Positions 2,599-64,000 of a stretch of 64,000 nt of DNA are shown here, piece by piece; the stretch's first letter is position 1, and each line of letters begins with the position of its first letter. Source of the stretch: Azospirillaceae bacterium (GTDB lineage Bacteria > Pseudomonadota > Alphaproteobacteria > Azospirillales > Azospirillaceae); the NCBI GenBank assembly GCA_031291675.1, contig JARLIO010000036.1, positions 1 through 64,000 on the forward strand, in the 5' to 3' direction. The notes below the pieces were generated by a model, which saw nothing but the letters and a program-made list of their open reading frames with translations, had not been told where the DNA came from and did no database searches. The translations under genes were made by a program, and so were the position numbers.

Positions 2599-3318
2599 TC
2601 AGACGAGAGCGCCAAACACCGACCCCACCGCCGCGGTAACCGCCATGGCTATTGTGCCCCAGAACAGGACCCGGCGTGCGGCCGGAACCAGCCTCGCCCC
2701 GCCGACATGGGCCGCCAAAGCCCCCAATACCGCCAGGAGCAACAGTGACGAGATCCCAACGGCCGGTATCAAGGCCGTAACGGGCACGAACGCCGACATC
2801 AGCAGCGGCATCATCGCGCCGCCCGAAAAGCTCGCCGCGGAGGACAACGCCGCCTGCACGGGGCGCGCCCGCAGCGCCTCGGTCAGGCCAAGTTCGTCGC
2901 GGGCATGCGCGCCCAGCGCGTCGTGCTTCATCAAGGACCGGGCCACCTGTGTCGCGAGCCCGGGCTCCAGGCCGCGGCGGACATAGATGGCCGCCAGCTC
3001 TATTTGCTCGCCGGCATTGTCGTCCGCCAGTTCCGCCCGTTCCTTCGCCAGGTCGGCGTTCTCGATATCCTCCTGGGAATGGACGGACACGAATTCGCCC
3101 GCGGCCATCGACACAGCCCCGGCGGTCAGGCCCGATACCCCGGCGATCAGAATGGCGCCGTGCGTGCCATGTGCCGCCGCGACACCCAGCACCAGGCTGG
3201 ATGTCGACAAGATGCCGTCATTGGCACCCAGCACCGCGGCGCGCAACCAGCCGCTGCTGCCCATCCGGTGATGCTCCGGCACGGGGTTCGCCATGCGCGC
3301 GATCGCTCTCCGGGTCAC
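2599..3318 (-). CDS. VIT1/CCC1-family Fe/Mn transporter
   Basis: A 239-residue membrane protein of the VIT1/CCC1 family, which moves Fe2+ or Mn2+ across membranes. The N-terminal block HHRMGSSGWLRAAVLGANDG and the following SLVLGVAAA match the first helix of the family. A cytosolic Glu-rich stretch (QEDIENADLAKERAELADD) matches the metal-binding helices, and three C-terminal helices follow. The start codon overlaps the stop of the Mg2+ ATPase gene by 4 bases (ATGA), so the two are translationally coupled and likely act together in divalent-cation homeostasis. Substrate preference cannot be read from sequence alone. Confidence 0.9.
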   Translation of the reverse strand: MTRRAIARMANPVPEHHRMGSSGWLRAAVLGANDGILSTSSLVLGVAAAHGTHGAILIAGVSGLTAGAVSMAAGEFVSVHSQEDIENADLAKERAELADDNAGEQIELAAIYVRRGLEPGLATQVARSLMKHDALGAHARDELGLTEALRARPVQAALSSAASFSGGAMMPLLMSAFVPVTALIPAVGISSLLLLAVLGALAAHVGGARLVPAARRVLFWGTIAMAVTAAVGSVFGALV

Positions 3319-5879
3319 CGGGGCACCAGCCGGGACCGGCCGATCGTATGGTAGAACACGGTCTTGGACAGCTCAACCAGACCCAGATAGGCCAGCGTGG
3401 TCGCGATCAGAAAGGCGAAGAACAGGGGCGGCGGTGGCGTAAAGCCGAACCAGGGACCGATCGGTGACAATGGCAGTGCCAGCGCCAAAACCACCGCGCC
3501 AATCGTCGCGCCCACCAGGAAGCGGTTTGGCCGGCTGCGCCACGCCGCGCGCCGGGTGCGGATGCAGAACACCACCAGCGCCTGGGTCGTCATCGATTCG
3601 ATGAACCATCCGGTCTGAAACAGCGCCGGCCCGGCGCCGAACAAGTGCAGCAACGCGTAGAACGTGACGAAATCGAAAATCGAGCTGATGGGCCCGAACA
3701 CCAGCATGAAGCGCTGGATCAATCTGACGTCCCAGGCAACCGGACCGGTGATCGCTTCGGCATCCACGCTGTCAAACGGGATCGCCACTTCGGACACGTT
3801 GTAGATCAGGTTGTTCAGCAGGATCTGGATCGGCAGCATCGGCAGGAACGGCAGGATCAGGGCGGCCCCCGCCATGCTGAACATGTTGCCAAAATTGGAG
3901 CTGGCGCCCATCAGAACATATTTCGATACGTTCAGCACCGTGCCGCGTCCCGCCACGATCGCCCGTCGGACAACCACCAGATCATGGTCGAGCAGGATCA
4001 GGTCCGCCGCCGCCCGGGCGACGTCGGCGGCGCCATCGACCGAGATGCCGACATCGGCCGCATGCAGCGCCGGCGCGTCATTGATCCCGTCGCCCAGGAA
4101 GCCGACGACGTGGCCGCGCTGTTTCAACGCCAGCAGCACCCGATGTTTCTGCTGCGGGTTGACCCGGCAGAACAGGTTGACCCACGGCAGGGCACCGATC
4201 AGCGCCTCCGGCGACATCCGCTCCAACTGGGTACCTTCCAGAACCCCGGTGACCGTCACGCCGATCTCCTTGAAGACATGGCGGCTCACCTGTTCGTTGT
4301 CGCCGGTCAGCACCTTCACCGCGACGCCGGCGGCGGCCATGGCGCGGATCGTCTCGCCGGCGCTCGCCTTCGGCGGATCGAGAAACACGGCAAAGCCCGA
4401 GAACACCAGGTCCGTCTCGTCGCAGACCGCGGCCGTCATGTGGCCGGCATCCATCACCCGGCTCGCGACACCCAAGGCTCGGAAGCCTTCGGCGCCAAGC
4501 CCTTCCAGCGTGACCTCGAAAGCGCGGCGGGCTTCGGCGTCCAGGGGCACCAGCGCACCATCCTGCTTGTGATATCCCGACAGGCGCAGCACGTCCTCCG
4601 GCGCGCCCTTCACGATCAAGCGCCGCTCGCCCGCGTGTTCGACCAGCACCGAGACGCGCCGGCGTTCGAAATCGAACGGGACCTCGTCGATCTTGCGCCA
4701 CGTCGCGATATCGAACGGTCGGGCGTTGACGATCGCGTCATCGAGCGGACTCTTCATCCCGCTCTCGAACCGGCTGTTGATGCAGGCGTCGGCATAGGTG
4801 TCGTCGCAGGAGGCGCCGTGTCCGTCGATGGTGCGGACCAGACTGATCTTGCCCTCGGTCAGCGTCCCGGTCTTGTCGGTGCACAGCATGTCCATCGCAC
4901 CCAGGTCGTGGATCGCCGAAAGGCGTTTGACGATCACGCGACGCTTGGACATCTGCAGCGCCGACCGGGCCAGCGTCACCGTCACGATCATCGGCAGCAG
5001 CTCCGGGGTCAGCCCCACCGCCAGCGCCACCGCGAACATCAGCGATTCCAGCAAGGGCCGATTGAACCACAGGTTGATCAGCAGGACGAACAGCACCATA
5101 AAGACGGTGAGGCGCATGATCAGAATGCCGAATTTCCGGATGCCGACGGTGAACGCCGTCGCGGGCGGCTTCTCGGCGAGGGACACCGCCAATTGACCCA
5201 GTGCCGTCCGGGCCCCGGTGAAGCAGACGAGGACCACCGCCGTGCCGCTGATGACAGACGTGCCGGCGAACACCGCGTTGGACGCGCCGGTCGCCGCCTC
5301 GGCTCCCGACGCGGTCGCCCCGGCCAGCTTCTCGACCGGATAGGGCTCGCCGGTCAGCAGCGCCTGGTTCACATACAGATCACGGCTCTCCAGCAAGCGG
5401 CAGTCCGCCGGCACCAGGTCGCCCGCGATCAACTCGACGACATCGCCGGGCACAAGCTGGTCCATGGGAATCGATACGGTCTTGCCGTCGCGGCGCACGC
5501 TGGCCTGCACCGCGACCGAACGGCGTAGCGCCTCGACGGCACTTTGCGCCCGCGCCTCCTGGACGAAGTCGAAGGTGACGCTCAGCAGCACGATCGACGC
5601 GATGATCACGAAGCTCGCCACGTCGCCTGTTGCCGCCGATAGCGCGCTTGCCAGCAGCAGGATGATGATCAGCGGATTGCGGAATCGCGCCAGGAACTGG
5701 AGCACCAGGGGGGTTTGCTTGTCGGCCGCCGCGTCGTTCGCCCCGTATTTCGCCCGGTTCGCCCGCGCGGTGCCGGTGTCCAGCCCCGCGGGCGTGGTTT
5801 CGAGTGCCGTGAGAAGCCGCGCTGTGGGCGCTTGCCAGATCTCTTCCGGACGGAGCGAATTCGGTGCGAGGTTTGCCAT
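3315..5879 (-). CDS. mgtA: Magnesium-translocating P-type ATPase
   Basis: A P3B-type ATPase of 854 residues that imports Mg2+ across the inner membrane. Visible motifs, in order, are the actuator loop LLTGEP, the membrane sequence VGLTPELLPMIV, the phosphorylation site CTDKTGTLTEG, the nucleotide-domain phrase VKGAPEDVL, and the hinge GDGINDAPAL. The C-terminal helices are typical of MgtA/MgtB. Length is slightly below the ~900 residues of enterobacterial MgtA because the N-terminal tail is short. It is the first intact gene of a two-gene unit with the VIT transporter. The start lies 3 bases after the stop of a decayed pstB fragment. No Mg2+-sensing leader could be recognised upstream. Confidence 0.95.
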   Translation of the reverse strand: MANLAPNSLRPEEIWQAPTARLLTALETTPAGLDTGTARANRAKYGANDAAADKQTPLVLQFLARFRNPLIIILLLASALSAATGDVASFVIIASIVLLSVTFDFVQEARAQSAVEALRRSVAVQASVRRDGKTVSIPMDQLVPGDVVELIAGDLVPADCRLLESRDLYVNQALLTGEPYPVEKLAGATASGAEAATGASNAVFAGTSVISGTAVVLVCFTGARTALGQLAVSLAEKPPATAFTVGIRKFGILIMRLTVFMVLFVLLINLWFNRPLLESLMFAVALAVGLTPELLPMIVTVTLARSALQMSKRRVIVKRLSAIHDLGAMDMLCTDKTGTLTEGKISLVRTIDGHGASCDDTYADACINSRFESGMKSPLDDAIVNARPFDIATWRKIDEVPFDFERRRVSVLVEHAGERRLIVKGAPEDVLRLSGYHKQDGALVPLDAEARRAFEVTLEGLGAEGFRALGVASRVMDAGHMTAAVCDETDLVFSGFAVFLDPPKASAGETIRAMAAAGVAVKVLTGDNEQVSRHVFKEIGVTVTGVLEGTQLERMSPEALIGALPWVNLFCRVNPQQKHRVLLALKQRGHVVGFLGDGINDAPALHAADVGISVDGAADVARAAADLILLDHDLVVVRRAIVAGRGTVLNVSKYVLMGASSNFGNMFSMAGAALILPFLPMLPIQILLNNLIYNVSEVAIPFDSVDAEAITGPVAWDVRLIQRFMLVFGPISSIFDFVTFYALLHLFGAGPALFQTGWFIESMTTQALVVFCIRTRRAAWRSRPNRFLVGATIGAVVLALALPLSPIGPWFGFTPPPPLFFAFLIATTLAYLGLVELSKTVFYHTIGRSRLVPR

Positions 5880-5882
5880 CGG

Positions 5883-6344
5883 TCAGACCAGCCAGCCCGT
5901 GATCGTGTGCCGGGCCCGCGGTGGCTGCGGTGATGTGAACAGCAGTTCGGTCGACGCGGCCTCAATCCTTTCGCCCCGGTCGGGGAACGCCACCGGGTCC
6001 GGGCATTGCGCCGCCGGCTGCGGATCGCAGGTCACCAGCATGATCGTGGCTGTCTTTTCCAACGCATCGATCAGATCCTTGACCGCGATCAGGCTCACCG
6101 GTTCGAGCGCCACTATCGGTTCGTCCATCAGCGCGACACGGACCCGCGTCGCCGCGTCGGCGTCGGACAGGGGCGGGTGCCGCCATAGTCCGCGTGCGGC
6201 GTTCTTGTCGCTCGACATTGGGAAACTCCTGGTCTCCTGGAACACCATGCCGGCCGGGCTGCGCCGTCGCGCCCGGGTGACTTGGGGCCCCGTGATATTG
6301 TCTTCGTCCATCCGTGCCGTTCCATGGACAATGCCAGGATGCAC
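5883..6344 (-). pseudogene. Decayed phosphate ABC transporter ATPase (pstB remnant)
   Basis: The 153-residue frame carries pieces of PstB in the right order. GMVFQETRSFPMS matches the Q-loop region, LMDEPIVALEPVS matches Walker B plus D-loop (normally LMDEPTSALDPIS), and TIMLVTCDPQPAAQCPD matches the H-loop, with Cys in place of the switch His. LLFTSPQ...ITGWLV matches the PstB C-terminus. The Walker A region and roughly 70-80 residues containing the LSGGQ signature are missing, so it cannot be a working ATPase. The nominal start is a GTG without a good ribosome-binding site, and an in-frame stop lies about 20 codons upstream. It abuts mgtA on the same strand and may only provide its leader. 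Nothing convincing was seen in 6345-6491. Confidence 0.6.
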
Positions 6345-24756: not shown

Positions 24757-24775
24757 TTCGCAGCGGATCCATCCC

Positions 24776-24808
24776 GGCACCCCGGCGGTAGATTGCCGCA
24801 GGGGTGCC
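24776..24808 (+). terminator. Probable terminator hairpin after the binding-protein gene
   Basis: GGCACCCC (24776-24783) pairs with GGGGTGCC (24801-24808), with additional CGGC/GCCG pairing inside. It lies 20 bases after the stop codon and has no T-tract, so it may stabilise the mRNA end instead of terminating. Confidence 0.55.
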
Positions 24809-25328
24809 GCCGCGGCGGTGCCCGGCTCGTGAGAATTGGCGCCCGCCACCGGGTGACGGCGGATAAAGCGCGCGATACAAGCAAAACAGTCAACAATTCA
24901 CGGGCGGGTCAATCCTCCCGCAAAGTGCTGGAAAGACCAGCAAGACCCGGGGCTTGCACCCGGCGACCACCGTCGCGTCGCGCCGTGGTCGCGTGCCGCA
25001 TCACCAAAATCCCGACACGAACCGACGCTCGCGACGCCCGATTGTCTTGCGGCGCGCCCGTTGCCGCGACCGTGGATGCGGCATTTGTATCCTTTTCTCC
25101 CATCCCCCGCGCGTCTATCCCTCTGGGAGATCGGAACCCATGACGATCACAGGCGGGATGCTGGTGTCGTGGTTATCGTTCTGCTCACCCGGGGGACGCA
25201 AAGCGGGTTCGCCACTGCGTCGGCCGGGCGTTCGCAACAGGGTGAGCCGATGATCCGATAGCACATTCGGACCGGCAAGGATCTGCCGGCAAGGTCGATC
25301 TGTCGTGAGCCATGAGGGGGAAGTAAGT
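24809..25328. other. Long leader region before the hydrogenase operon
   Basis: No protein gene is supported in these 520 bases. The 3' third carries a potential folded RNA (25183-25247, annotated separately). No clear sigma-54 or sigma-70 promoter was recognised. Confidence 0.5.
25183..25247 (+). ncRNA. Candidate structured leader RNA upstream of the hydrogenase operon
   Basis: GCTCACCC (25183-25190) is exactly complementary to GGGTGAGC (25240-25247). GACGCA (25195-25200) is complementary to TGCGTC (25216-25221), and a small GCG-GGTT-CGC hairpin lies inside. This gives a nested, branched fold about 80 bases before the operon start. The segment GGGACGCAAAGC matches the conserved core of c-di-GMP-I riboswitches, but the other conserved parts of that class are not evident. 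Treat it as a candidate only. Confidence 0.35.
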
Positions 25329-27323
25329 TTGGCACATATCTCTTACGGCGTCTGGGACGGTGTCGTCCTCGACAATCGGGGCAAGGACGCGCCAGATCGC
25401 GTCGCCTTGTCAGAGTTTGACAGTATCGACGAATTCAACCCGGGAAATCCGATTCGCGCCTTCTTCGCCGATCGCGGGTTCCTGGTCTTCGATCCGGAAG
25501 TCAGCCTGATCGATGCGCTGTGGCGTTATCTCGACAAGGCCGCCGAGCAATCGTGCGGCAAATGCACACCGTGCCGCATGGGCACGGTGCTGATCCGCGA
25601 CGCCCTGAATCAGTTGCGCATCGGCGATGCCGTCCAGCTCGATTTCGACACGATCGACACCCTGGCCCAGCAGATGGCCGAGACCTCGCTGTGCGGTCTG
25701 GGCCGGACGTGCGCCGGGGCGCTGCTCGGCGCGTTGCACCATTTCCGCGGTGCGCTGGAAGCCGAGGCCGACGCCGGCCCGGCGCCGCGTCAGTACGGCA
25801 TGTCCTATATGACGGCGCCCTGCATCGAGGCCTGTCCGTCACGGATCAACGTGCCGCGCTATATCGATTACATCCGCGACGGCAAGCCGGAGCATTCGCT
25901 GGGTGTCATCCTGCAGAAATACCCGATGGCCGCGACCTGTGGCCGGGTCTGCGTCCGGTTCTGCGAGATCGCCTGTCACCGCAGCCTGGTCGATCAGCCG
26001 GTCGGCATCAAGACGCTGAAGCGCTATGTCGCTGACCACCAGAAGGGGCCCAATGCCCTCAACTTCACCCGCGACCTGATCGCCCATCCCCTGCCCGATG
26101 ACATGCGGGTTGCCGTGGTCGGGGCCGGCCCGTCCGGCATCTCCTGCGCCTATCATCTGCTGCTTCACGGCTATCATGTCGACATTCTCGACGCGATGGG
26201 CGAGGCCGGCGGCATGGCCGCGATCGGCATCCCCAGCTATCGCCTGCCCAAGGACGTGGTGAAGTCCGAATCCGAGATCCTGATCTCCCTGGGCGGTCAT
26301 TTCCTGTTCAATCAGGCGCTGGGACGGGACTATTCCATCGATGACCTGTTCGCCCGCGGCTACAAGGCGGTGTATCTGGCGCTGGGCTGCCAGCAGGGCA
26401 CCCAGATGGGGGTCAAGGGCGAGGACCCGACATTGTCCGGCTATGAGACCGGGATCGCCTTCCTGCTGATCGTTCATGACCATATCGCCGGCATCAAGAC
26501 CACGGCGCTGAGCGGTGACGTGGTCGTGGTCGGCGGCGGCAATGTCGCGATGGACTGCGTGCGCTCGGCGCTGCGGATGGGCGCCAACTCGGTGCATCTG
26601 ATCTATCGCCGCACCCGCGCCGACATGCCCGCCGACAAGGAGGAGATCGAGGCCGCCGAGGCCGAGGGTGTGATCTTCCACTTCCTGACCAACCCGTCCC
26701 AGGTGATCGCGCAGGACGGCCGCGTCGTCGGGGTCGAACTGGTCGACATGGCCCAGACCGACGCCGACGCCAAAGGCCGGCGCAACGTCAAGCCGATCCC
26801 CGGCACCGAGCGGGTCATGACCTGTACCACCCTGATCTCGGCGATCGGCCAGCAGGTGCAGAGCGGCGCCATCACACCCGTCGACGGCGTGGCGATGAAT
26901 CGCTGGAAATGTGTCGATGTCGATGCCACCAGCCTGGCGACCTCGCGGCCCGGCGTCTTTGCCGGCGGCGACTGCGCGACCGGCCCGTCGACCCTGATCC
27001 ATGCCATGGCCGGCGGCCTGCGCGCGGCGCGCGCCATCGATGACTGGTTGCAGCTTGGCGAGGTTCGTTTCGCGCCACGGGCCCGGATGCGCCAGATCGT
27101 CGCCGAGCACAAAATGCTGGCCTCCTGCGTCAATGTCCCGGTCAAGCGGATCTATCGGGTCCACCACCCCGAACTCGACCCCGAAGTACGCAAATCGATG
27201 TTCGAAGAGGTCGAGCACAACATCACCAAAGAAGAGGCCTATCACGAGGCCAATCGCTGTATGCGCTGCTATCGGATCTATTCTGTCATTACCGACCAGC
27301 CCATTCCCGAAGGAGCGGTATGA
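25329..27323 (+). CDS. NuoF-tail / GltD-like fusion: iron-sulfur flavoprotein partner of [FeFe]-hydrogenase
   Basis: A 664-residue protein from the TTG at 25329, chosen because GAGGGGGAAG lies 8 bases upstream; a GTG at 25305 is the alternative. Residues ~1-145 match only the C-terminal part of NuoF/HndC: CGKCTPCRMGT (Cys76, 79, 82) plus SLCGLGRTC (Cys122) bind one 4Fe-4S cluster. The FMN/NADH domain of NuoF is absent. Residues ~160-250 carry Cys-rich CIEACP and CGRVC...CEIAC motifs, as in GltD and NfnB. The rest is the FAD/NAD(P)H double Rossmann unit (VVGAGPSGISCAY, VVVGGGNVAMDC, FAGGDCATGPSTL). It overlaps the hydrogenase gene by 4 bases and probably links it to NAD(P)H. Confidence 0.88.
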   Translation: MAHISYGVWDGVVLDNRGKDAPDRVALSEFDSIDEFNPGNPIRAFFADRGFLVFDPEVSLIDALWRYLDKAAEQSCGKCTPCRMGTVLIRDALNQLRIGDAVQLDFDTIDTLAQQMAETSLCGLGRTCAGALLGALHHFRGALEAEADAGPAPRQYGMSYMTAPCIEACPSRINVPRYIDYIRDGKPEHSLGVILQKYPMAATCGRVCVRFCEIACHRSLVDQPVGIKTLKRYVADHQKGPNALNFTRDLIAHPLPDDMRVAVVGAGPSGISCAYHLLLHGYHVDILDAMGEAGGMAAIGIPSYRLPKDVVKSESEILISLGGHFLFNQALGRDYSIDDLFARGYKAVYLALGCQQGTQMGVKGEDPTLSGYETGIAFLLIVHDHIAGIKTTALSGDVVVVGGGNVAMDCVRSALRMGANSVHLIYRRTRADMPADKEEIEAAEAEGVIFHFLTNPSQVIAQDGRVVGVELVDMAQTDADAKGRRNVKPIPGTERVMTCTTLISAIGQQVQSGAITPVDGVAMNRWKCVDVDATSLATSRPGVFAGGDCATGPSTLIHAMAGGLRAARAIDDWLQLGEVRFAPRARMRQIVAEHKMLASCVNVPVKRIYRVHHPELDPEVRKSMFEEVEHNITKEEAYHEANRCMRCYRIYSVITDQPIPEGAV

Positions 27324-29167
27324 TCATGGACACTCTTATCGCTGAGACCGCGGGCACGCCGGTGAATGTCACGATCGATGGCCAGCCGGTGATCGCTTAT
27401 GCCGAAGAGACCATCCTGACCTGCGCACGCCGTCACAAGGTCAATATTCCGACCCTGTGCGAAATGCACGATATCGACCATGCGCCCGGCACCTGCCGGG
27501 TCTGCCTGGCCGAGATCCGGACCCCCGGTCGGGACGGGTTGCAAATGGCGACAACCTGCAACACCCCGGTGTGCGAGGGGATGGAGATCCTGACCCACAC
27601 CAAGCGGGTCCGCGACATGCAGCGGCTTCAGGTCGAACTGCTGCTGGCCGACCACGATCAGGATTGTGCCACCTGCGTGCGCCACGGCAATTGTGAGCTG
27701 CAGGACATTGCCCATTTTGTCGGGCTGCGCACCAACCGCTTCTTCCGGCCCGAGCGGATCGCGTCACGGGGCATTGATGACTCGTCTCCGGCGCTGATCC
27801 GGGACATGACCAAATGCATCCGCTGCCGCCGCTGTGTTGCGATTTGCCGCGAGGGCCAGGCGGTGGACGCCCTGGTGGTCACCGGCAGCGGCCAGAGCGC
27901 CGCGGTCGGGCTTCATTACGGCACGTCGCAGAAGGATTCCACCTGCATCACCTGCGGCCAGTGCGTGCTGGTATGCCCGACCGGGGCGCTTGGCGAGCGT
28001 GACGAGACCGACCTGGTGCTCGACATGCTTTATGATCCCGAGATCATCACCGTGTTCCAGTTCGCCCCCGCGGTGCGTGTCGGTTTTGGCGAGGAATTCG
28101 GCTTGCCGCCGGGTACCAATGTCGAAGGCCAGATCATCAGCGCGCTGCGCACCCTGGGCGCTGATATCGTGCTGGACACCAATTTTGCCGCCGACGTCGT
28201 GATCATGGAGGAGGCGACCGAATTGCTGCGCCGCCTGGGCCAGGGCAAGAAGCCGACCTTCACCTCCTGCTGCCCGGCCTGGATCAACTTCGCCGAGCGG
28301 CATTATCCCGACATCCTGCCCTTGCTGTCCTCGACCAAGTCGCCGCAGCAATGTCTGGGAAAAATCGCCAAGACCTATCTGCCGGAGCGGATGGGCCTTG
28401 ATCCGGCCCGGATCCGGGTGGTCTCGATCATGCCCTGTATCGCCAAGAAGGACGAGCGGGTCCGTGAACAGCTTGGTGAGAACGGCGTCCGCGAAATCGA
28501 CGTGGTTCTGACGACGCGGGAATTTGCCCGCCTGCTGCGCCGTCAGGGCATCGATTTCGCGGCGTTGCCGTCCTCGACCTTCGACAATCCCTACATGACC
28601 GCCTATTCCGGTGCCGGCGCGATCTTTGGCACCACGGGCGGTGTCATGGAGGCGGCGGTTCGCACCATGTACAAGGTGGTCACCGGTGAGGAGCTGGCGA
28701 AAATCGAACTGGACCAGCTGCGCGGTTTCGAGGGCGTGCGCTCGGCGACGGTCGATGTCGGCAACGGTATCGGCGTGGTCAAGATCGCCATGTGCCACGG
28801 TCTGAAACCGACGCGCGAGCTGGTTGAAGCGGTGCGCGCCGGGACCGCCGATTTCGATTTTATCGAGATCATGGCCTGTCCCGGTGGCTGTGTCGATGGC
28901 GGCGGCAATCTGCGTTCCAAGAAGGCCTATATGCCCAATGCGATGAAGCGGCGTGAGAGCCTGTTTGCCATCGACCATGTCGCCAGGGTGCGGCAATCGC
29001 ACAACAATCCGCAGGTCCAGGCGCTGTATCGCGACTTCCTGGAGCAGCCCTATTCGGAAAAGGCGCACCATCTGCTGCATACCTATTACACCGACCGTCA
29101 CCTGGACATGGTGCGGACGGTCAAGGATATCTGGCAGGAAATCACAATGAGCACGATGATCTACTGA
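27320..29167 (+). CDS. hydA: [FeFe]-hydrogenase catalytic subunit (HydA/HndD type)
   Basis: A 615-residue iron hydrogenase. The N-terminus is a plant-type 2Fe-2S domain (Cys47, Cys59, Cys62, Cys80), followed by a His/Cys-ligated cluster (His112, Cys116, Cys119, Cys125). A two-cluster ferredoxin domain comes next (Cys166-176 and Cys209-219). The H-cluster motifs are complete: TSCCPAW (Cys317 as proton relay, Cys318 as ligand), MPCIAKKDE (Cys373) and MACPGGCVDGGG (Cys520, Cys524). It therefore looks catalytically competent, of the modular M3 architecture. The ATG overlaps the stop of the flavoprotein gene. The HydEFG maturases are not in this window and must be elsewhere if the enzyme is active. 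A perfect terminator follows. Confidence 0.95.
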   Translation: MIMDTLIAETAGTPVNVTIDGQPVIAYAEETILTCARRHKVNIPTLCEMHDIDHAPGTCRVCLAEIRTPGRDGLQMATTCNTPVCEGMEILTHTKRVRDMQRLQVELLLADHDQDCATCVRHGNCELQDIAHFVGLRTNRFFRPERIASRGIDDSSPALIRDMTKCIRCRRCVAICREGQAVDALVVTGSGQSAAVGLHYGTSQKDSTCITCGQCVLVCPTGALGERDETDLVLDMLYDPEIITVFQFAPAVRVGFGEEFGLPPGTNVEGQIISALRTLGADIVLDTNFAADVVIMEEATELLRRLGQGKKPTFTSCCPAWINFAERHYPDILPLLSSTKSPQQCLGKIAKTYLPERMGLDPARIRVVSIMPCIAKKDERVREQLGENGVREIDVVLTTREFARLLRRQGIDFAALPSSTFDNPYMTAYSGAGAIFGTTGGVMEAAVRTMYKVVTGEELAKIELDQLRGFEGVRSATVDVGNGIGVVKIAMCHGLKPTRELVEAVRAGTADFDFIEIMACPGGCVDGGGNLRSKKAYMPNAMKRRESLFAIDHVARVRQSHNNPQVQALYRDFLEQPYSEKAHHLLHTYYTDRHLDMVRTVKDIWQEITMSTMIY

Positions 29168-29236: not shown

Positions 29237-29276
29237 GAGCCAATGGTCATTCCTTATGACCATTGGCTCTTTTTTT
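29237..29276 (+). terminator. Intrinsic terminator of the hydrogenase operon
   Basis: GAGCCAATGGTCAT (29237-29250), a 5-base loop, then the exact complement ATGACCATTGGCTC (29256-29269) followed by seven T residues. It lies 70 bases after the hydrogenase stop. The remaining bases up to 29518 contain nothing recognisable. Confidence 0.95.
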
Positions 29277-30408: not shown

Positions 30409-30560
30409 TATAGAATCGATCTCAACTGACCCACCTAAAATGGCTGCGGGCCGTTCGGGACGGTTCCTCCGACTGGGCAGGCGACAGAGACCCCATGTTG
30501 GCTCGGTTTCTCATTATTATGACGATCGTGACGGCGGCATGCCTGGTGTTGCGACGGGAC
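30409..30560. repeat. Duplicated kinase 5' region, copy A (truncated)
   Basis: The block starts GTATAGAAT, runs through GGCCGTTC...ACGGTTC, and ends in a sequence encoding LARFLIIMTIVTAACL. It matches copy B at 31222, which contains the real start and signal segment of the histidine kinase. Copy A lacks about 85 bases in the middle and stops after the signal-peptide-like codons. It lies on the far side of the ParDE-like genes. Confidence 0.8.
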
Positions 30561-30623
30561 GGGCGATGTCAAACCCCACGGTGCCGTGATAGACTGACCA
30601 AACACCTTATGAAGGATCACGCC

Positions 30624-30809
30624 ATGGCCGAACCCGCAACCCTGACCGACTTCGACGAAGACGCCGCCGAAGCGGCCGCGCTGGCTGCCGCCGTGGAGAA
30701 GGCTCGCGCCAATCCTCGCAGCGTCCCCCACGCCGAAATGCGCCTGTGGCTGCTCGAACTGGCCGCCGGCAATTTCGAGGCGCCTCCGCCTGTCGCCCGT
30801 GAATTGTGA
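30624..30809 (+). CDS. Antitoxin of a ParDE-like module
   Basis: A 61-residue acidic protein. The ATG at 30624 is preceded by GAAGGATCAC. The C-terminal phrase SVPHAEMRLWLLELAAGNFEAPPP resembles the tail of antitoxins paired with ParE/RelE toxins. The open frame extends upstream into the duplicated kinase leader (copy A), which is not expected to be part of the protein. Its stop overlaps the GTG of the toxin gene by 4 bases. Confidence 0.75.
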   Translation: MAEPATLTDFDEDAAEAAALAAAVEKARANPRSVPHAEMRLWLLELAAGNFEAPPPVAREL

Positions 30810-31066
30810 GCCTTGTTGTTTGGCGGGAAGACGCCCGTGACGACATCGTCCGCCTCGCCCGGTTCATTGCCGGGGAAAATCCCAGCGCGGCCCGCCGCGT
30901 CGCACAGGAACTTCTGACCGCCGGGGACAGCTTGGCCCTGTTTCCCCGACGCGGTCGACTTGGCTTGATTCCTGGCACGCGTGAGTTGGTGACGCGGCCG
31001 CCTTTTGTGCTGGTCTACCAAGTAAACAAGGCGGGATTGAGTCACTATTACGCAAGAGAAACGTAA
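30806..31066 (+). CDS. ParE/RelE-family toxin, C-terminally short
   Basis: An 86-residue toxin of the ParE/RelE superfamily: VVWREDARDDIVRLARFIAGENPSAA, FPRRGRLG, IPGTRELVTRPPFVLVYQV. In the family the last strand (usually IxRVxH) follows VYQV. Here the frame ends with KAGLSHYYARET instead, while a +1 frame offers GIESLLRKRNVT. The end may therefore be frameshifted, leaving a weakened or dead toxin. It overlaps the antitoxin gene (GTGA). Confidence 0.75.
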   Translation: MSLVVWREDARDDIVRLARFIAGENPSAARRVAQELLTAGDSLALFPRRGRLGLIPGTRELVTRPPFVLVYQVNKAGLSHYYARET

Positions 31067-41257: not shown

Positions 41258-41313
41258 CTAACCAACCTTGACCAACACACGGGGGGATGGTATTGTTGGT
41301 CAACTTTGGTTAG
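41258..41313 (+). promoter_or_regulatory. Promoter flanked by inverted repeat for the VapBC-like module
   Basis: TTGACC (41268-41273), a 17-base spacer and TATTGT (41291-41296) form a promoter. A 20-base inverted repeat with two mismatches, CTAACCAACCTTGACCAACA (41258) versus its complement at 41294-41313, brackets it. One arm covers the -35 and the other the start of transcription, as expected for an autorepressed toxin-antitoxin operator. Confidence 0.8.
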
Positions 41314-41321
41314 GAATGGAC

Positions 41322-41567
41322 ATGTCGCACCCCATCAATCTGTATGAGGCCAAAACAAATCTGTCGCAGTTGGTCGACCGTGCGGCCGCCGGCGAGGAGA
41401 TTATCATCGCCAAGGCCGGACGTCCGCTGGCACGCTTGGTTCCCTTGGCGGTGCGCACCGAACCGCGCTTTCCCGGTCTGCTGAAGGGAAGGATCGCGAT
41501 CGGTGCGGATTTCGACGCACCGTTACCAGATGAGGTTGCGAAAGCGTTTCAGGGGAAATCGCCGTGA
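41322..41567 (+). CDS. Phd/VapB-type antitoxin
   Basis: An 81-residue antitoxin: INLYEAKTNLSQLVDRAAAGEEIIIAKAGRPLARLVPL is the standard Phd/YefM N-terminal DNA-binding fold, and the C-terminal tail contacts the toxin. ATG 41322 is chosen for the AGGA six bases upstream. It overlaps the PIN-domain toxin gene by 4 bases and is preceded by an operator-bracketed promoter. Confidence 0.9.
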   Translation: MSHPINLYEAKTNLSQLVDRAAAGEEIIIAKAGRPLARLVPLAVRTEPRFPGLLKGRIAIGADFDAPLPDEVAKAFQGKSP

Positions 41568-41953
41568 GATTGCTTCTCGACAGCCATATCCTGTTGTGGT
41601 GGCTGACTGATGATCCGGCCCTGCCGGCTGCGGCGAAAGCGGCCATTGGTGACCCGACCTCGGACGTATTCGTCAGTGCCGCGACGGCCTGGGAGTTGGC
41701 CGTCAAATGTGCGCTCGGTCGTCTCGAATTCCCCATTGGGCAGATGGCGGCAATTCTGGACGAAGCGGGGTTCACGCCCCTTGGGATCGAGGTGGAGCAT
41801 GCCGTGATCGCAGGGGCCTTGCCGCGGCACCACAACGACCCCTTCGACCGAATGCTGATCGCCCAGGCGCAGCATGAAGGCATGACGATCCTCACCGTGG
41901 ATCCGATGATAAGACGCTATGCCGTTGCGGTGCTCGGCGGCTCGAATAACTGA
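41564..41953 (+). CDS. VapC-like PIN-domain ribonuclease toxin
   Basis: A 129-residue PIN-domain protein. The acidic metal-binding residues are Asp in LLLDSHILLWW, Glu in AATAWELAVKCALG, and the Asp pair in HHNDPFDRMLIAQA and TVDPMI. The start is GTG within the antitoxin stop. It should cleave RNA when not bound by the antitoxin. The LLLDTHxLLWW subgroup is typically paired with Phd-like antitoxins, as here. Confidence 0.9.
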   Translation: MRLLLDSHILLWWLTDDPALPAAAKAAIGDPTSDVFVSAATAWELAVKCALGRLEFPIGQMAAILDEAGFTPLGIEVEHAVIAGALPRHHNDPFDRMLIAQAQHEGMTILTVDPMIRRYAVAVLGGSNN

Positions 41954-41981
41954 CCCGCGGGGAACATCGCGAGGGCCTTGT

Positions 41982-42020
41982 ATATCCGGCGAATATCCCG
42001 CACGATATCCGCGAGATATC
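41982..42020 (+). promoter_or_regulatory. Helically phased ATATC repeats upstream of the MazE-like gene
   Basis: ATATC occurs at 41982, 41993, 42005 and 42016, spaced 11, 12 and 11 bases, about one DNA turn each. The last two sit in GATATC-cgcga-GATATC. They end 12 bases before the antitoxin start and are a plausible operator for antitoxin autoregulation. Confidence 0.65.
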
Positions 42021-42032
42021 AGGGAGAGGGCG

Positions 42033-42278
42033 ATGCAAGTGCAACTGGCCCGTTGGGGCAATAGTCTCGGGGTCCGCATTCCGAAGGAGATCGCCGGCCG
42101 CCTTGGGCTCATAGAGGGCGTGCGGGTGGAGATGACGACGGATGATGGCCGGATCGTCATTTCACCCGTGACACCGCGGTATCAACTCGCCGATCTCCTT
42201 CAGGGCATCACGCCCGAGGCCATGCGGGATGCGTTCGATTGGGGTGACGACCTCGGCCGCGAGCGGATCGACGAATGA
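42033..42278 (+). CDS. mazE: AbrB/MazE-family antitoxin
   Basis: An 81-residue swapped-hairpin DNA-binding antitoxin: MQVQLARWGNSLGVRIPKEIAGRLGL...VRVEMTTDDGRIVISPV is the classical MazE/SpoVT-AbrB domain. The C-terminal acidic tail (FDWGDDLGRERIDE) would wrap MazF. ATG 42033 follows GGGAGAGGGCG. It overlaps the toxin gene by 4 bases. Confidence 0.92.
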   Translation: MQVQLARWGNSLGVRIPKEIAGRLGLIEGVRVEMTTDDGRIVISPVTPRYQLADLLQGITPEAMRDAFDWGDDLGRERIDE

Positions 42279-42610
42279 TACCGTGCGATGCTGGCGATAT
42301 CGTCTGGACTGATTTCGACCCGACGCGCGGTCGGGAGCAAGCGGGGCGGCGGCCCGCCTTGGTCGTCTCGCCACAAGCGTTCCAAGCGCTGAGCGGGTTT
42401 GCTTTCGTGTGCCCGATCACAAGCAACGTCCGACCGTTCGGCACAAGCGTCGTCCTGCCGGCCGGCCTCGCTGTCGCGGGCGAGGTGTTGACGAGTCATA
42501 TGCGGAGCATCGACACCCTGGCCCGGCCAATCAAGATCGCGGGTCGGGTCCCCGACACCGTCCTTGCCGATGTCCGCGCAAAATTGGCCGCCTTGATTGG
42601 GCTGACGTAG
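42275..42610 (+). CDS. mazF: MazF/PemK-family endoribonuclease toxin
   Basis: A 111-residue toxin with GDIVWTDFDPTRGREQAGRRPALVVSPQ and FVCPITSN, the catalytic and structural strands of MazF, followed by VLTSHMRSIDTLAR. It is full length and looks intact. It cleaves mRNA at short sequence motifs when freed from MazE. The ATGA overlap couples it to the antitoxin. Confidence 0.93.
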   Translation: MIPCDAGDIVWTDFDPTRGREQAGRRPALVVSPQAFQALSGFAFVCPITSNVRPFGTSVVLPAGLAVAGEVLTSHMRSIDTLARPIKIAGRVPDTVLADVRAKLAALIGLT

Positions 42611-62115: not shown

Positions 62116-64000
62116 TCATGGCGCCGCCGCCGCGTCTCTGTCGGCCTGGCGCAGGCGCTCGCGCAGCAGGGCCGCCATCACCGATACGTTGGGCTCAACC
62201 AGACAAGAGAAATGGTCGCCGGGAACATCATGGATCTCCACGGGCCGTGTGGAGAACTTCTCCCAGCCCCACCACGCGTTCTCCCGGATTTCGGGCAGGA
62301 TGATGGTCGGGGGCAGTTCCGCCACGCCTTTGTAGAGGACGAAGGGCACGGGTAGCGCCAGCTTCGGCGGGTCGTAGCCGAAATCGGCGGTCGCCCTGAA
62401 CACCTTGACCAGGCCGCGGATCGCGCTGGTGTCCGTGCCGCGGCGGATCAGGCCGGCACCTTCCAGGCGGTCACGCAGATAGGCCAGCTTGTCGTCGAAC
62501 GCCAAGGTGCCGATACGCCGGTATTCCGCATAATCGATCTCGACCGGCTTGTTGAAGAAATAGGCGTAGGTGTTGAGCACCGAGCCGATGGCTCCGGCAT
62601 CATCCATGCCGCCGACATCGCGATAGGGTGGCGCCGAGGAGTCCAGAAAGGCCATCAGGTTGACGCGCTGCCCCTGGCGCTGGAGCTGGACCGCCATCTC
62701 GTAGATCACTTTGCCGCCCAGCGAATGGCCGCCGAGCAGATAGGGGCCCTTCGCCTGCACCGAGCGGATGCAGCGAACATAGTGCTCCGCCATCGCCTGA
62801 ACCGTGGCGTGCGGCTCGACCGTGCCATCCAGGCCCAGGGACTGCAGGGCGTAGAACGGCCGGTCGTCACCGAGCGACGTGGCCAATGGCAGGAGCTGGG
62901 CGACGTTGCCGCCCATGCCCGGCACGCAGAAGAACGGCGTGCCGGCGCCGACGGCGCTGACCGGCACCAGACAGAAGCGGATATCGCGGTCCCCCGCCTC
63001 GCCCGCCGCACCGATCGCCGGGGCATCGCCGATGGACCGACAGATGCGGGCGATCGTCGGCTCGGCCAGGAAATCAGCCAGGGTGGGCGCATTTTTATGG
63101 ATGTCGCGCACGCGCGAGATGACCTGCGTGCCCAACAGGGAATGGCCGCCGAGGTCGAAGAAATTGTCCTCAACCCCCACCGCGTCGAGACCCAGCAGAT
63201 CTTGCCAAATCCGCGCGATGGACCGCTCGACCGCGGTGCGGGGGGCGATGAACGGTGTGGCCAGCGCCGGTCGCGCACCGGGATCCGCACCGGGATCGAA
63301 CGTCGCCCTGGCTTGGGCGGCGGGCGCCATCGGGCGTGGTCGGGCGATCACCGCCTGGGGCGGAGCGCCGCGCATGACACGGTCAAGGGCGGCCAGCGCA
63401 TCCCGGGTCGACAGGCCTTCCAGCGACGTCAGGGCCTTCTCGCCGAAGCGCTGCCGGACATGTGCCACCGCCATGCCGACTTCCGTCCAGCTATCCCAGT
63501 TCACCGCGGTGGCCGGCAACCCGTCGGCCCGCAGCCCATGGACCACGGCGTCGAGATAGGCATTGGCCGCCGCATAGTCGGCCTGGCCGAGCCCGCCGTG
63601 CAGCGAGGCCAGCGAGGAGCACAGCACGAACACCTCCGGCCGATCGTCCCGGACCAAGCGGGCCAATATGTCGGTGCCCAACACCTTGGGCGCAAACACG
63701 CGGCGGGCCGCTTCGGGGGTGAAGGTTCCGAGCATGCCGCTGGCCTCCAGGCCCGCGGCATGCACCACGCCGGCGACGCGGCCGAACCGGCCGCGCAGCG
63801 CGGCCACCGCGCGCGCCATCGCCTCGGGATCGGCGGCGTCGGCCTGAACCACCATCACGTCGGCCCCCGCTGCCCGCAAGGCGTCCAACGGGTCCGCCAG
63901 TTCCGGCCGGGTCGCCCGATCGGGAACCGGCGACCGGCTGGTCAGCACCAGGCCGACCCGCGCCTTGCCCGCAAGGTGGCGCGCGATCGCCAGGCCGATG
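62116..64000 (-). CDS. Type I polyketide (or hybrid NRPS-PKS) synthase, C-terminal KR-ACP-TE part (partial)
   Basis: The frame continues past the right edge, so only the last ~628 residues are visible. A ketoreductase region comes first, with VVHAAGLEASGML, catalytic Ser in LCSSLASLHGGLGQ and Tyr in ADYAAANAYLDAVV. An acyl-carrier domain has the phosphopantetheine Ser in DLGGHSLLGTQV. A type I thioesterase has the nucleophile in LLGGHSLGGKVIYE and His in VPGDHFSCL. The order KR-ACP-TE marks the terminal module, where the chain is released. The product cannot be predicted without the upstream modules. Confidence 0.92.
   Translation of the reverse strand, partial: IGLAIARHLAGKARVGLVLTSRSPVPDRATRPELADPLDALRAAGADVMVVQADAADPEAMARAVAALRGRFGRVAGVVHAAGLEASGMLGTFTPEAARRVFAPKVLGTDILARLVRDDRPEVFVLCSSLASLHGGLGQADYAAANAYLDAVVHGLRADGLPATAVNWDSWTEVGMAVAHVRQRFGEKALTSLEGLSTRDALAALDRVMRGAPPQAVIARPRPMAPAAQARATFDPGADPGARPALATPFIAPRTAVERSIARIWQDLLGLDAVGVEDNFFDLGGHSLLGTQVISRVRDIHKNAPTLADFLAEPTIARICRSIGDAPAIGAAGEAGDRDIRFCLVPVSAVGAGTPFFCVPGMGGNVAQLLPLATSLGDDRPFYALQSLGLDGTVEPHATVQAMAEHYVRCIRSVQAKGPYLLGGHSLGGKVIYEMAVQLQRQGQRVNLMAFLDSSAPPYRDVGGMDDAGAIGSVLNTYAYFFNKPVEIDYAEYRRIGTLAFDDKLAYLRDRLEGAGLIRRGTDTSAIRGLVKVFRATADFGYDPPKLALPVPFVLYKGVAELPPTIILPEIRENAWWGWEKFSTRPVEIHDVPGDHFSCLVEPNVSVMAALLRERLRQADRDAAAAP

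Follow-up and report, generated by a model that had tools for sequence, protein, structure and literature searches.

The window, that is, the whole stretch of DNA that was analysed (64,000 nucleotides, positions 1 to 64,000 of the forward strand of contig JARLIO010000036.1, assembly GCA_031291675.1, from an alphaproteobacterium of the Azospirillaceae), carries a two-gene unit in which hydA, encoding the catalytic subunit of a group A [FeFe]-hydrogenase, follows the gene of a protein that joins the C-terminal 4Fe-4S tail of NuoF directly to a GltD/NfnB-type module for flavin adenine dinucleotide (FAD) and nicotinamide adenine dinucleotide phosphate (NADP(H)). Judging from the sequences, the two proteins are likely to form a heterodimeric, non-bifurcating H2:NADP+ oxidoreductase. 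By its make-up, a single chain of about 650-710 amino acids (aa) in which the tail is continuous with the FAD/NADP module, and by its grouping with fusions linked to the formate dehydrogenase subunit FdhA, the fusion is a beta subunit of the FdhB type.

Composition of the unit

The frame of the fusion is open from a GTG at 25305 and ends at 27323 on the forward strand (672 aa; residues are numbered from this GTG throughout). The TTG at 25329 is the better start, since it follows a strong ribosome-binding-site-like sequence, GAGGGGGAAG, and agrees with the starts of the relatives, coinciding with the chosen start in five of the six complete ones and being off by one residue in L097. The Pfam scan recovers NADH_4Fe-4S (residues 70-153, 2.4e-21), Fer4_20 (170-247, 2.9e-22) and Pyr_redox_2 (267-571, 1.6e-27) in the fusion and finds no Complex1_51K (flavin mononucleotide (FMN)/NADH) domain in it. 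The start of hydA overlaps the end of the fusion by 4 bases and its product matches Fe_hyd_lg_C (2e-88, 297 bits), Fe_hyd_SSU (74 bits) and TIGR02512 (513 bits, cut-off 406). Chance matches are excluded for the domains of both proteins. An initial annotation of this DNA had described a hydrogenase paired with a NuoF-tail/GltD flavoprotein devoid of the FMN domain, in a two-subunit unit without NuoE whose GltD-type flavin site is the only port for pyridine nucleotides. The Pfam matches and the frames bear out this architecture: no NuoE gene or FMN domain is present in the unit, and the idea of a sole port is supported.

The same annotation held every H-cluster motif of HydA to be intact. This stands for the cysteines C317, C318, C373, C520 and C524, which we take to have their usual roles at the H-cluster, but not for the residues after the last cysteine motif, which read GGGNL in the window protein and GGGTL in the relatives L090-L093, against the usual GGGQP. 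The ligands of the NuoG-like N-terminal domain are invariant in the alignment; by analogy with known HydA and NuoG proteins, C47, C59, C62 and C80 presumably hold a [2Fe-2S] cluster, H112, C116, C119 and C125 a His-Cys3 [4Fe-4S] cluster, and C166, C169, C172 and C176, together with C209, C212, C215 and C219, two more [4Fe-4S] clusters.

Cluster ligands and nucleotide sites of the fusion

The conservation of ligands was counted over 53 fusion rows, those without sequence at a given column being left out there. In the NuoF tail, C84, C87 and C90 are cysteines in 10/10 HydA-linked rows with sequence, and C130 in 11/11, the Collinsella row included. C90 is a glycine in 6 of the 28 FdhA-linked rows, and the other ligands are retained in all the fusion rows having sequence there. 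An extra cysteine, C212 (25938-25940), is found in 11/11 HydA-linked rows with sequence, in 7/7 rows of a long form in which HydB and GltD are fused, and in 8/28 FdhA-linked rows.

In the PDB, the fusion best matches StnC and two NfnABC chains, namely NfnA from T. sibiricus and the large chain from C. saccharolyticus. Alignment with StnC covers the cysteines C173, C177, C216, C220, C224, C652 and C655. The published background, here and below, comes from parts of PMC5037454, PMC7483475, PMC6776011, PMC12578642, PMC9431212, PMC9304861, PMC11406978, PMC7547702, PMC5736913, PMC10482914 and PMC6288185. In these excerpts, the GltD-type domain of StnC holds two [4Fe-4S] clusters, the one nearer to the FAD having Lys170 as a ligand, and structure and mutants are given as grounds for regarding the FAD of StnC as non-bifurcating. 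The corresponding column of the fusions (K239) is Lys in 53/53 and Glu in the NfnL of T. maritima and P. furiosus. The N-terminal CxxC of the NfnL proteins seems to be gone from the fusion, but the loss of the second GltD cluster was rejected because a C-terminal RCMRC is probably the circularly permuted counterpart of the N-terminal RCLQC of NfnL. This pair (C652, C655) is present in 53/53 fusions and, in the main alignments, falls on a CxxC that StnC and NfnA have at this position; the direct match of residues 623-655 to residues 10-42 of the T. maritima NfnL is weak (12 bits, i-Evalue 0.39). C652 and C655 are therefore treated as putative ligands.

Residues G410, G412, A415, Y434, R435 and R436 are present in 53/53 fusions, and GxGxxA is given as an NADP(H)-type motif in the part of PMC7483475 drawn on. 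The motifs thus agree with a likely NADP(H) specificity, and, together with the kinship to FdhB-type proteins, they make NADPH the likely partner, one of the options that the initial annotation had named.

Relatives of the pair and origin of the fusion

The HydA scan matched 592 stretches, of which 588 were confirmed, and the results given here cover the best 80 of these 588. The nearest eight relatives (74-45% identity) come from a Xanthobacteraceae, a 'Verrucomicrobium' bin, Rhodovulum PH10, an Ancalomicrobiaceae, Mailhella, Desulfovibrio, a Desulfobulbaceae (L096) and Turicimonas (L097). In each of the eight, hydA is immediately preceded by a GltD-type gene, which is the arrangement of the window, and no NuoE or NuoF match lies within their loci. 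Six of them carry an entire NuoF tail. In L091 and L095 the fusion is truncated at a contig end, which leaves part of the tail to be seen in L091 and removes it in L095. No common third gene was seen by eye around the pair in eight loci with gene calls (L097 gave none and L091 is not among them); as the flanking genes share nothing, the loci give no sign of a third subunit. Of the remaining 72 HydA loci, all except L100, L131, L137 and L168 display a NuoF of the HydB type (68 loci). Trees were quick IQ-TREE runs supported by the Shimodaira-Hasegawa-like approximate likelihood ratio test (SH-aLRT) only. In the 91-row HydA tree, the window HydA and the nearest eight form one clade of 9 (SH-aLRT 100).

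The fusion is scarce around the host. Among the matches listed for 145 relatives, the host included, no other covers the NuoF tail, and only 2 of 398 genomes sampled in the phylum, again counting the host, have a fusion match at 1e-90 or better. In the phylum of the Desulfobulbaceae relative (L096), 321 of 395 genomes have one at 1e-70 or better and, among the matches listed, many span from query residue 3-12 to beyond 655. The fusion being unique to the host is thus rejected, despite its near-absence in the two closer samples. Viral contigs gave no match to it.

Forty neighbourhoods from 39 genomes of the L096 phylum were hand-chosen, not randomly, from the matches listed. A short fusion accompanies FdhA in 27/40, adjacently in 25 (not in L214 and L218), although 14 of these FdhA-like partners share only 25-39% identity with the single Cetobacterium query, which makes their activity less sure. 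A short fusion stands with HydA in 2/40, both from one genome, and with no visible partner in 4/40 (L210, L212, L217 and L235). The long HydB-GltD form occurs with FdhA in 4/40 and with HydA in 2/40, and a tail-less form in 1/40 (L243). Elsewhere, a tail-GltD fusion of genome G145 (L075, 6876-8846) has no HydA or FdhA match in the 16 kb fetched.

A tree of the fusion and a comparison of gene order had been proposed as checks. In the 53-row fusion tree (the fragment L153 was left out), the 11 HydA-linked fusions other than that of Collinsella form one clade (SH-aLRT 100), which makes up, with the FdhA-linked L207-L209, a group of 14 rows (SH-aLRT 100). The placement of the Collinsella fusion in this lineage was rejected (approximately unbiased test, p = 0.001; long branch), and the Collinsella HydA lies outside the window clade in the HydA tree although a tail-GltD fusion adjoins it; on these placements, its pairing is convergent. 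In Collinsella aerofaciens (L086, 4752-9491), this pair of separate origin is preceded by a 4Fe-4S dicluster protein.

The N-terminal domain of the window HydA scores 129-185 bits against the HydAs of the 72 other loci, compared with 90-126 against FdhA N-terminal domains and 142 against that of Moorella. Since it mostly scores higher against HydAs than against FdhAs, the whole catalytic subunit was probably exchanged. The simplest account of the sequences would be one exchange of FdhA for HydA on the beta subunit of an NADP-formate dehydrogenase, the direction of which assumes a root outside the HydA clade. It seems somewhat more plausible than the contrary that the window fusion belongs to an uncharacterised class of direct, ferredoxin-free H2:NADP+ enzymes that was made once in this way and later spread from sulfate reducers into alpha- and betaproteobacteria.

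Maturases and redox genes of the host

The host genome (5.87 Mb in 99 contigs, 97.7% complete) has one PF02906 gene. The initial annotation had regarded an absence of the maturases, or a separate NuoE/NuoF-like partner, as fatal to a two-subunit enzyme, and neither objection holds. HydE, hydF and hydG each have one match over the cut-off, away from the unit: hydG and hydF cluster with aspA (aspartate ammonia-lyase) on one contig, in the order hydG-aspA-hydF. Missing maturases are therefore rejected. A separate NuoF serving the window HydA is rejected too, as the genome-wide search for PF01512 found a single gene, in an operon reading as complex I (NuoE was not searched genome-wide). Among plasmid records, the NuoG proteins most similar to that of this complex I are rhizobial (57-58%), which fits an alphaproteobacterium. 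A two-subunit enzyme that can be matured is favoured because hydEFG are present and no NuoF exists besides that of complex I. The rarity of [FeFe] enzymes in the class, also suggested before, is confirmed: they occur in 23 of 385 sampled genomes including the host, and 21 of the other 22 are genomes of 0.9-2.3 Mb.

The hydE gene is found on another contig and is flanked by acetate kinase and transaldolase genes (region C84, 51559-55362; L275, 3560-7363), a setting that may hint at fermentation and at the pentose phosphate route as a source of NADPH. About 9 kb from it lies a 993-aa fused Nfn-like protein (C84, 63355-66336; L275, 15356-18337), whose best match is PRK12775 (trifunctional, with a ferritin-like C-terminal domain; 1886 bits, under the cut-off of 1895).

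Proposed electron path and energetics

Gene content, ligand conservation, phylogeny and maturase genes are direct results, from which we infer the formation of the complex, the occupancy of its clusters, the order of electron transfer, the specificity and the direction. A hydride would move between NADPH/NADP+ and the FAD in the GltD-like domain, from which single electrons would pass through the two [4Fe-4S] clusters to the [4Fe-4S] cluster of the NuoF tail (B1/N3 type), and from there through the NuoG-like iron-sulfur chain of HydA to the H-cluster, HydA occupying the place that FdhA takes elsewhere on an FdhB-type subunit. According to the published excerpts, clusters B2-B5 are found in all true bifurcators of the HydB family, while the non-bifurcating HydB homologues without them use B1, which connects the flavoprotein with the NuoG-like subunit. 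This path is the most likely one because the B1-type tail is retained and B2-B5 are missing.

The NADPH potential in anaerobic cells is reported, in the excerpts drawn on, as near -370 to -380 mV, and that of NADH as -280 mV. The computed equilibrium H2 pressures are 3-7 kPa for NADPH at -370/-380 mV and about 3 Pa for NADH at -280 mV. With such cellular potentials, an NADPH port can dispense with ferredoxin: the enzyme could evolve H2 without it up to several kPa of H2, or reduce NADP+ with H2 above. In the host, H2 evolution might serve as an NADPH sink, which is a guess.

Alternative explanations

Several observations weigh against the reading of the pair as a functional, non-bifurcating NADP enzyme of single origin. 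At the standard NADPH potential of -320 mV, the computed equilibrium is only 66 Pa of H2. The FAD-site arginine R313, equivalent to R201 of NfnB, is also present in 53/53 fusions, so that the flavin site, taken by itself, is compatible with bifurcation. At the K239 column, 30 other GltD-like proteins have Glu (14), Lys (9) or Gln (7); Lys239 sets the port apart from Nfn but, being shared by 9 of these 30, is not diagnostic of the fusion family. The AlphaFold monomer of the fusion is poor (mean predicted local distance difference test score 68.7, below 50 for residues 171-254, from a shallow alignment of 9 rows), and a fold search with this low-confidence model ranks the NfnABC, Nfn and StnC chains highest. 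With respect to the origin, the nesting of the 14-row group among further FdhA-linked fusions has SH-aLRT values of 87 and lower, and the tail-GltD/HydA pairing is no marker of one lineage because the Collinsella pair arose separately. Lastly, the genomes of L090, L091 and L092 yielded neither HydF nor HydG above the cut-off (listing limit 1e-50; HydE not searched), a partial HydG-model match of 176 bits in L091 being below the cut-off of 312, and the genome of the Turicimonas bin (L097) has HydF but no HydG over the cut-off (HydE not searched). Relatives of this kind may have inactive or dead genes, incomplete data or another maturation. These gaps, together with the patchy occurrence of the fusion in the 145 relatives and in the phylum sample, are what would be expected of an unused or decaying acquisition, in which an intact-looking pair was transferred and is unmatured or unexpressed in alphaproteobacteria. 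Yet both subunits of the window are 68-75% identical to those of the four nearest relatives, with ligands retained and frames intact, and the host has its maturases, which makes decay hardly probable there.

The initial annotation had also considered electron confurcation. In such an enzyme the FAD of the GltD site would, as in Nfn, split the electrons of NADPH, sending some to HydA and the others to a ferredoxin that docks on either subunit. The fold and the FAD-site arginine are indeed those of the bifurcating NfnB, and HydA retains all its accessory cluster ligands, which elsewhere can meet ferredoxin. Nevertheless, the unit has no second flavin site, no NfnA partner with its [2Fe-2S] cluster and second FAD, no FMN domain and no ferredoxin clusters of HydB (B2-B5), its proximal cluster is of the Lys type of StnC rather than of the Glu type of NfnL, and that column is Glu in the Nfn-like protein of the host; confurcation is thus disfavoured and appears unlikely. 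The HydDB text offers a different function for group A2, in which H2 oxidation coupled to NAD reduction may supply the reductant of glutamate synthase. For the window pair, an NAD(H)-dependent enzyme feeding glutamate synthase seems very improbable: inspection by eye revealed no glutamate synthase gene next to the unit, YRR and GxGxxA are found in all the fusions, StnC and NfnA give the fusion better scores than the small subunits of glutamate synthase do, and the excerpts consulted describe as NADP-dependent the FdhAB of Moorella, which has a beta subunit of this architecture.

Comparison with known systems

The FdhAB of Moorella thermoacetica (EC 1.17.1.10) is described, in the parts drawn on, as an NADP-dependent formate dehydrogenase. 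In this species, a 710-aa tail-GltD protein (L252) lies upstream of a NuoG-like N-terminal domain followed by the first stretch of FdhA, at which the contig ends; its domains and its neighbour suggest that it is FdhB. The window has in common with this system a NuoF-tail/GltD beta subunit, a catalytic subunit encoded downstream of it whose N-terminal domain is NuoG-like, and the likely NADP(H) partner, and differs from it in the catalytic module, which is the H-cluster HydA instead of FdhA. The claim of a new port consequently falls, as the architecture is that of the beta subunit of NADP-formate dehydrogenase and HydDB already contains a GltD-linked group A2. That group is putatively glutamate synthase-linked, and its rule asks for a downstream protein with GltD and without NuoF. 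The window likewise has a group A HydA with a GltD-domain neighbour, but this neighbour is upstream of HydA and bears the NuoF-type 4Fe-4S tail; the window clade shares the idea of A2 and fails the written rule, the GltD protein not being downstream. In the excerpts, group A2 is termed functionally unresolved (2019 paper) and is listed among the groups needing characterisation (2025 paper), and the label itself is unsteady, since one paper applies A2 to CpI.

As in HydABC and group A3 (the BfuABC family), HydA has a NuoG-like N-terminal domain and the B1-type ligands are retained, but the window unit is without the FMN/NADH domain, NuoE/HydC and the B2-B5 clusters. The two-[4Fe-4S] GltD module, the Lys-type proximal cluster and the C-terminal CxxC recall StnABC and NfnABC, in which, however, GltD is joined to a NuoG-like subunit, there is no hydrogenase, and StnAB bifurcates. 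Compared with bifurcating GltD proteins of the Nfn type, the window has Lys239 for Glu and a two-gene unit without NfnA. The Moorella HydB-GltD fusion (L159) also has a NuoF tail continuous with GltD and adjoins a HydA, yet it keeps the whole FMN/NADH domain and its HydA is outside the window clade. Such HydB-GltD open frames of 1011-1028 aa, with two flavin sites and beside HydA, were seen in L159 (Moorella thermoacetica, 2933-5968; 1011 aa), L240 and L242. A literature search, with most subscription journals outside its reach and sources covered in part, found no characterised enzyme of the make-up of the window pair. The port and HydA being known, what appears to be new is their pairing, for which an origin has been traced and a sharp prediction can be made.

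Features of the unit and surrounding genes

The coordinates of the unit are collected in Table 1. The gene following hydA is a minus-strand regulator-like open reading frame (ORF), named by eye. The consensus scan, the only method used, found no sigma70-like site upstream of the fusion, and none of the matches to FNR- and sigma54-like patterns falls within 24757-25328. Across the window as a whole, matches to the FNR-like pattern, allowing up to 2 mismatches, number 24 against 13.7 expected, above all 100 shuffles. By eye, small gene pairs at 30495-31066 and 41268-42610 resemble toxin-antitoxin modules, and a large ORF leaving the window (62116-63999) has a ketoreductase-like or polyketide synthase-like stretch.

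Table 1 Features of the hydrogenase unit in the window
Feature	Coordinates	Strand	Basis
Shine-Dalgarno-like GAGGGGGAAG ahead of the TTG start 25329	25314..25323	+	Direct sequence reading
NuoF-tail/GltD fusion subunit (hydrogenase beta subunit, FdhB-like)	25329..27323	+	Frame open from 25305; domain matches
NuoF C-terminal 4Fe-4S domain, B1/N3-type cluster, residues 52-153, ligands C84, C87, C90, C130	25458..25763	+	Pfam; NuoF/HydB alignments 52-155
Fer4_20 domain, part of the two-[4Fe-4S] set: C173, C177, C216, C220, C224, with K239	25812..26045	+	Pfam; StnC alignment
Lys239 codon, counterpart of StnC K170 (proximal-cluster ligand)	26019..26021	+	Alignment
FAD-binding Rossmann segment, residues 267-306	26103..26222	+	Pyr_redox_2 / NAD_binding_8
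NADP(H) site: GGGNVA (GxGxxA), residues 410-415; YRR, 434-436	26532..26612	+	Motif conservation
RCMRC at the C terminus (C652, C655)	27255..27269	+	NfnL/StnC/NfnA alignments
hydA, group A [FeFe]-hydrogenase catalytic subunit	27320..29167	+	615 aa; Pfam, TIGR02512, motifs
NuoG-like N-terminal domain of HydA	27458..27976	+	Invariant columns, 10-row alignment
H-cluster motifs TSCCP (C317, C318), MPC (C373), CPGGC (C520, C524)	28268..28891	+	Alignment
Fe_hyd_SSU small-subunit-type domain, HydA C terminus	28943..29098	+	Pfam
Terminator-like hairpin, 14 pairs then T run	29237..29269	+	Consensus scan; 5 sites in the stretch, 2.3 expected

Implications

The FdhB-type reading gives this clade a concrete function that replaces the glutamate synthase guess, and points to a clean exchange of modules in which one NADPH port serves either formate or H2. 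If it is true, NADPH would drive H2 evolution at a far higher H2 pressure than NADH, and bifurcation would be unneeded. The pair would then connect H2 with NADPH as a hydrogenase of two subunits that needs no ferredoxin, useful for regenerating NADPH and for understanding the H2 balance of anaerobes.

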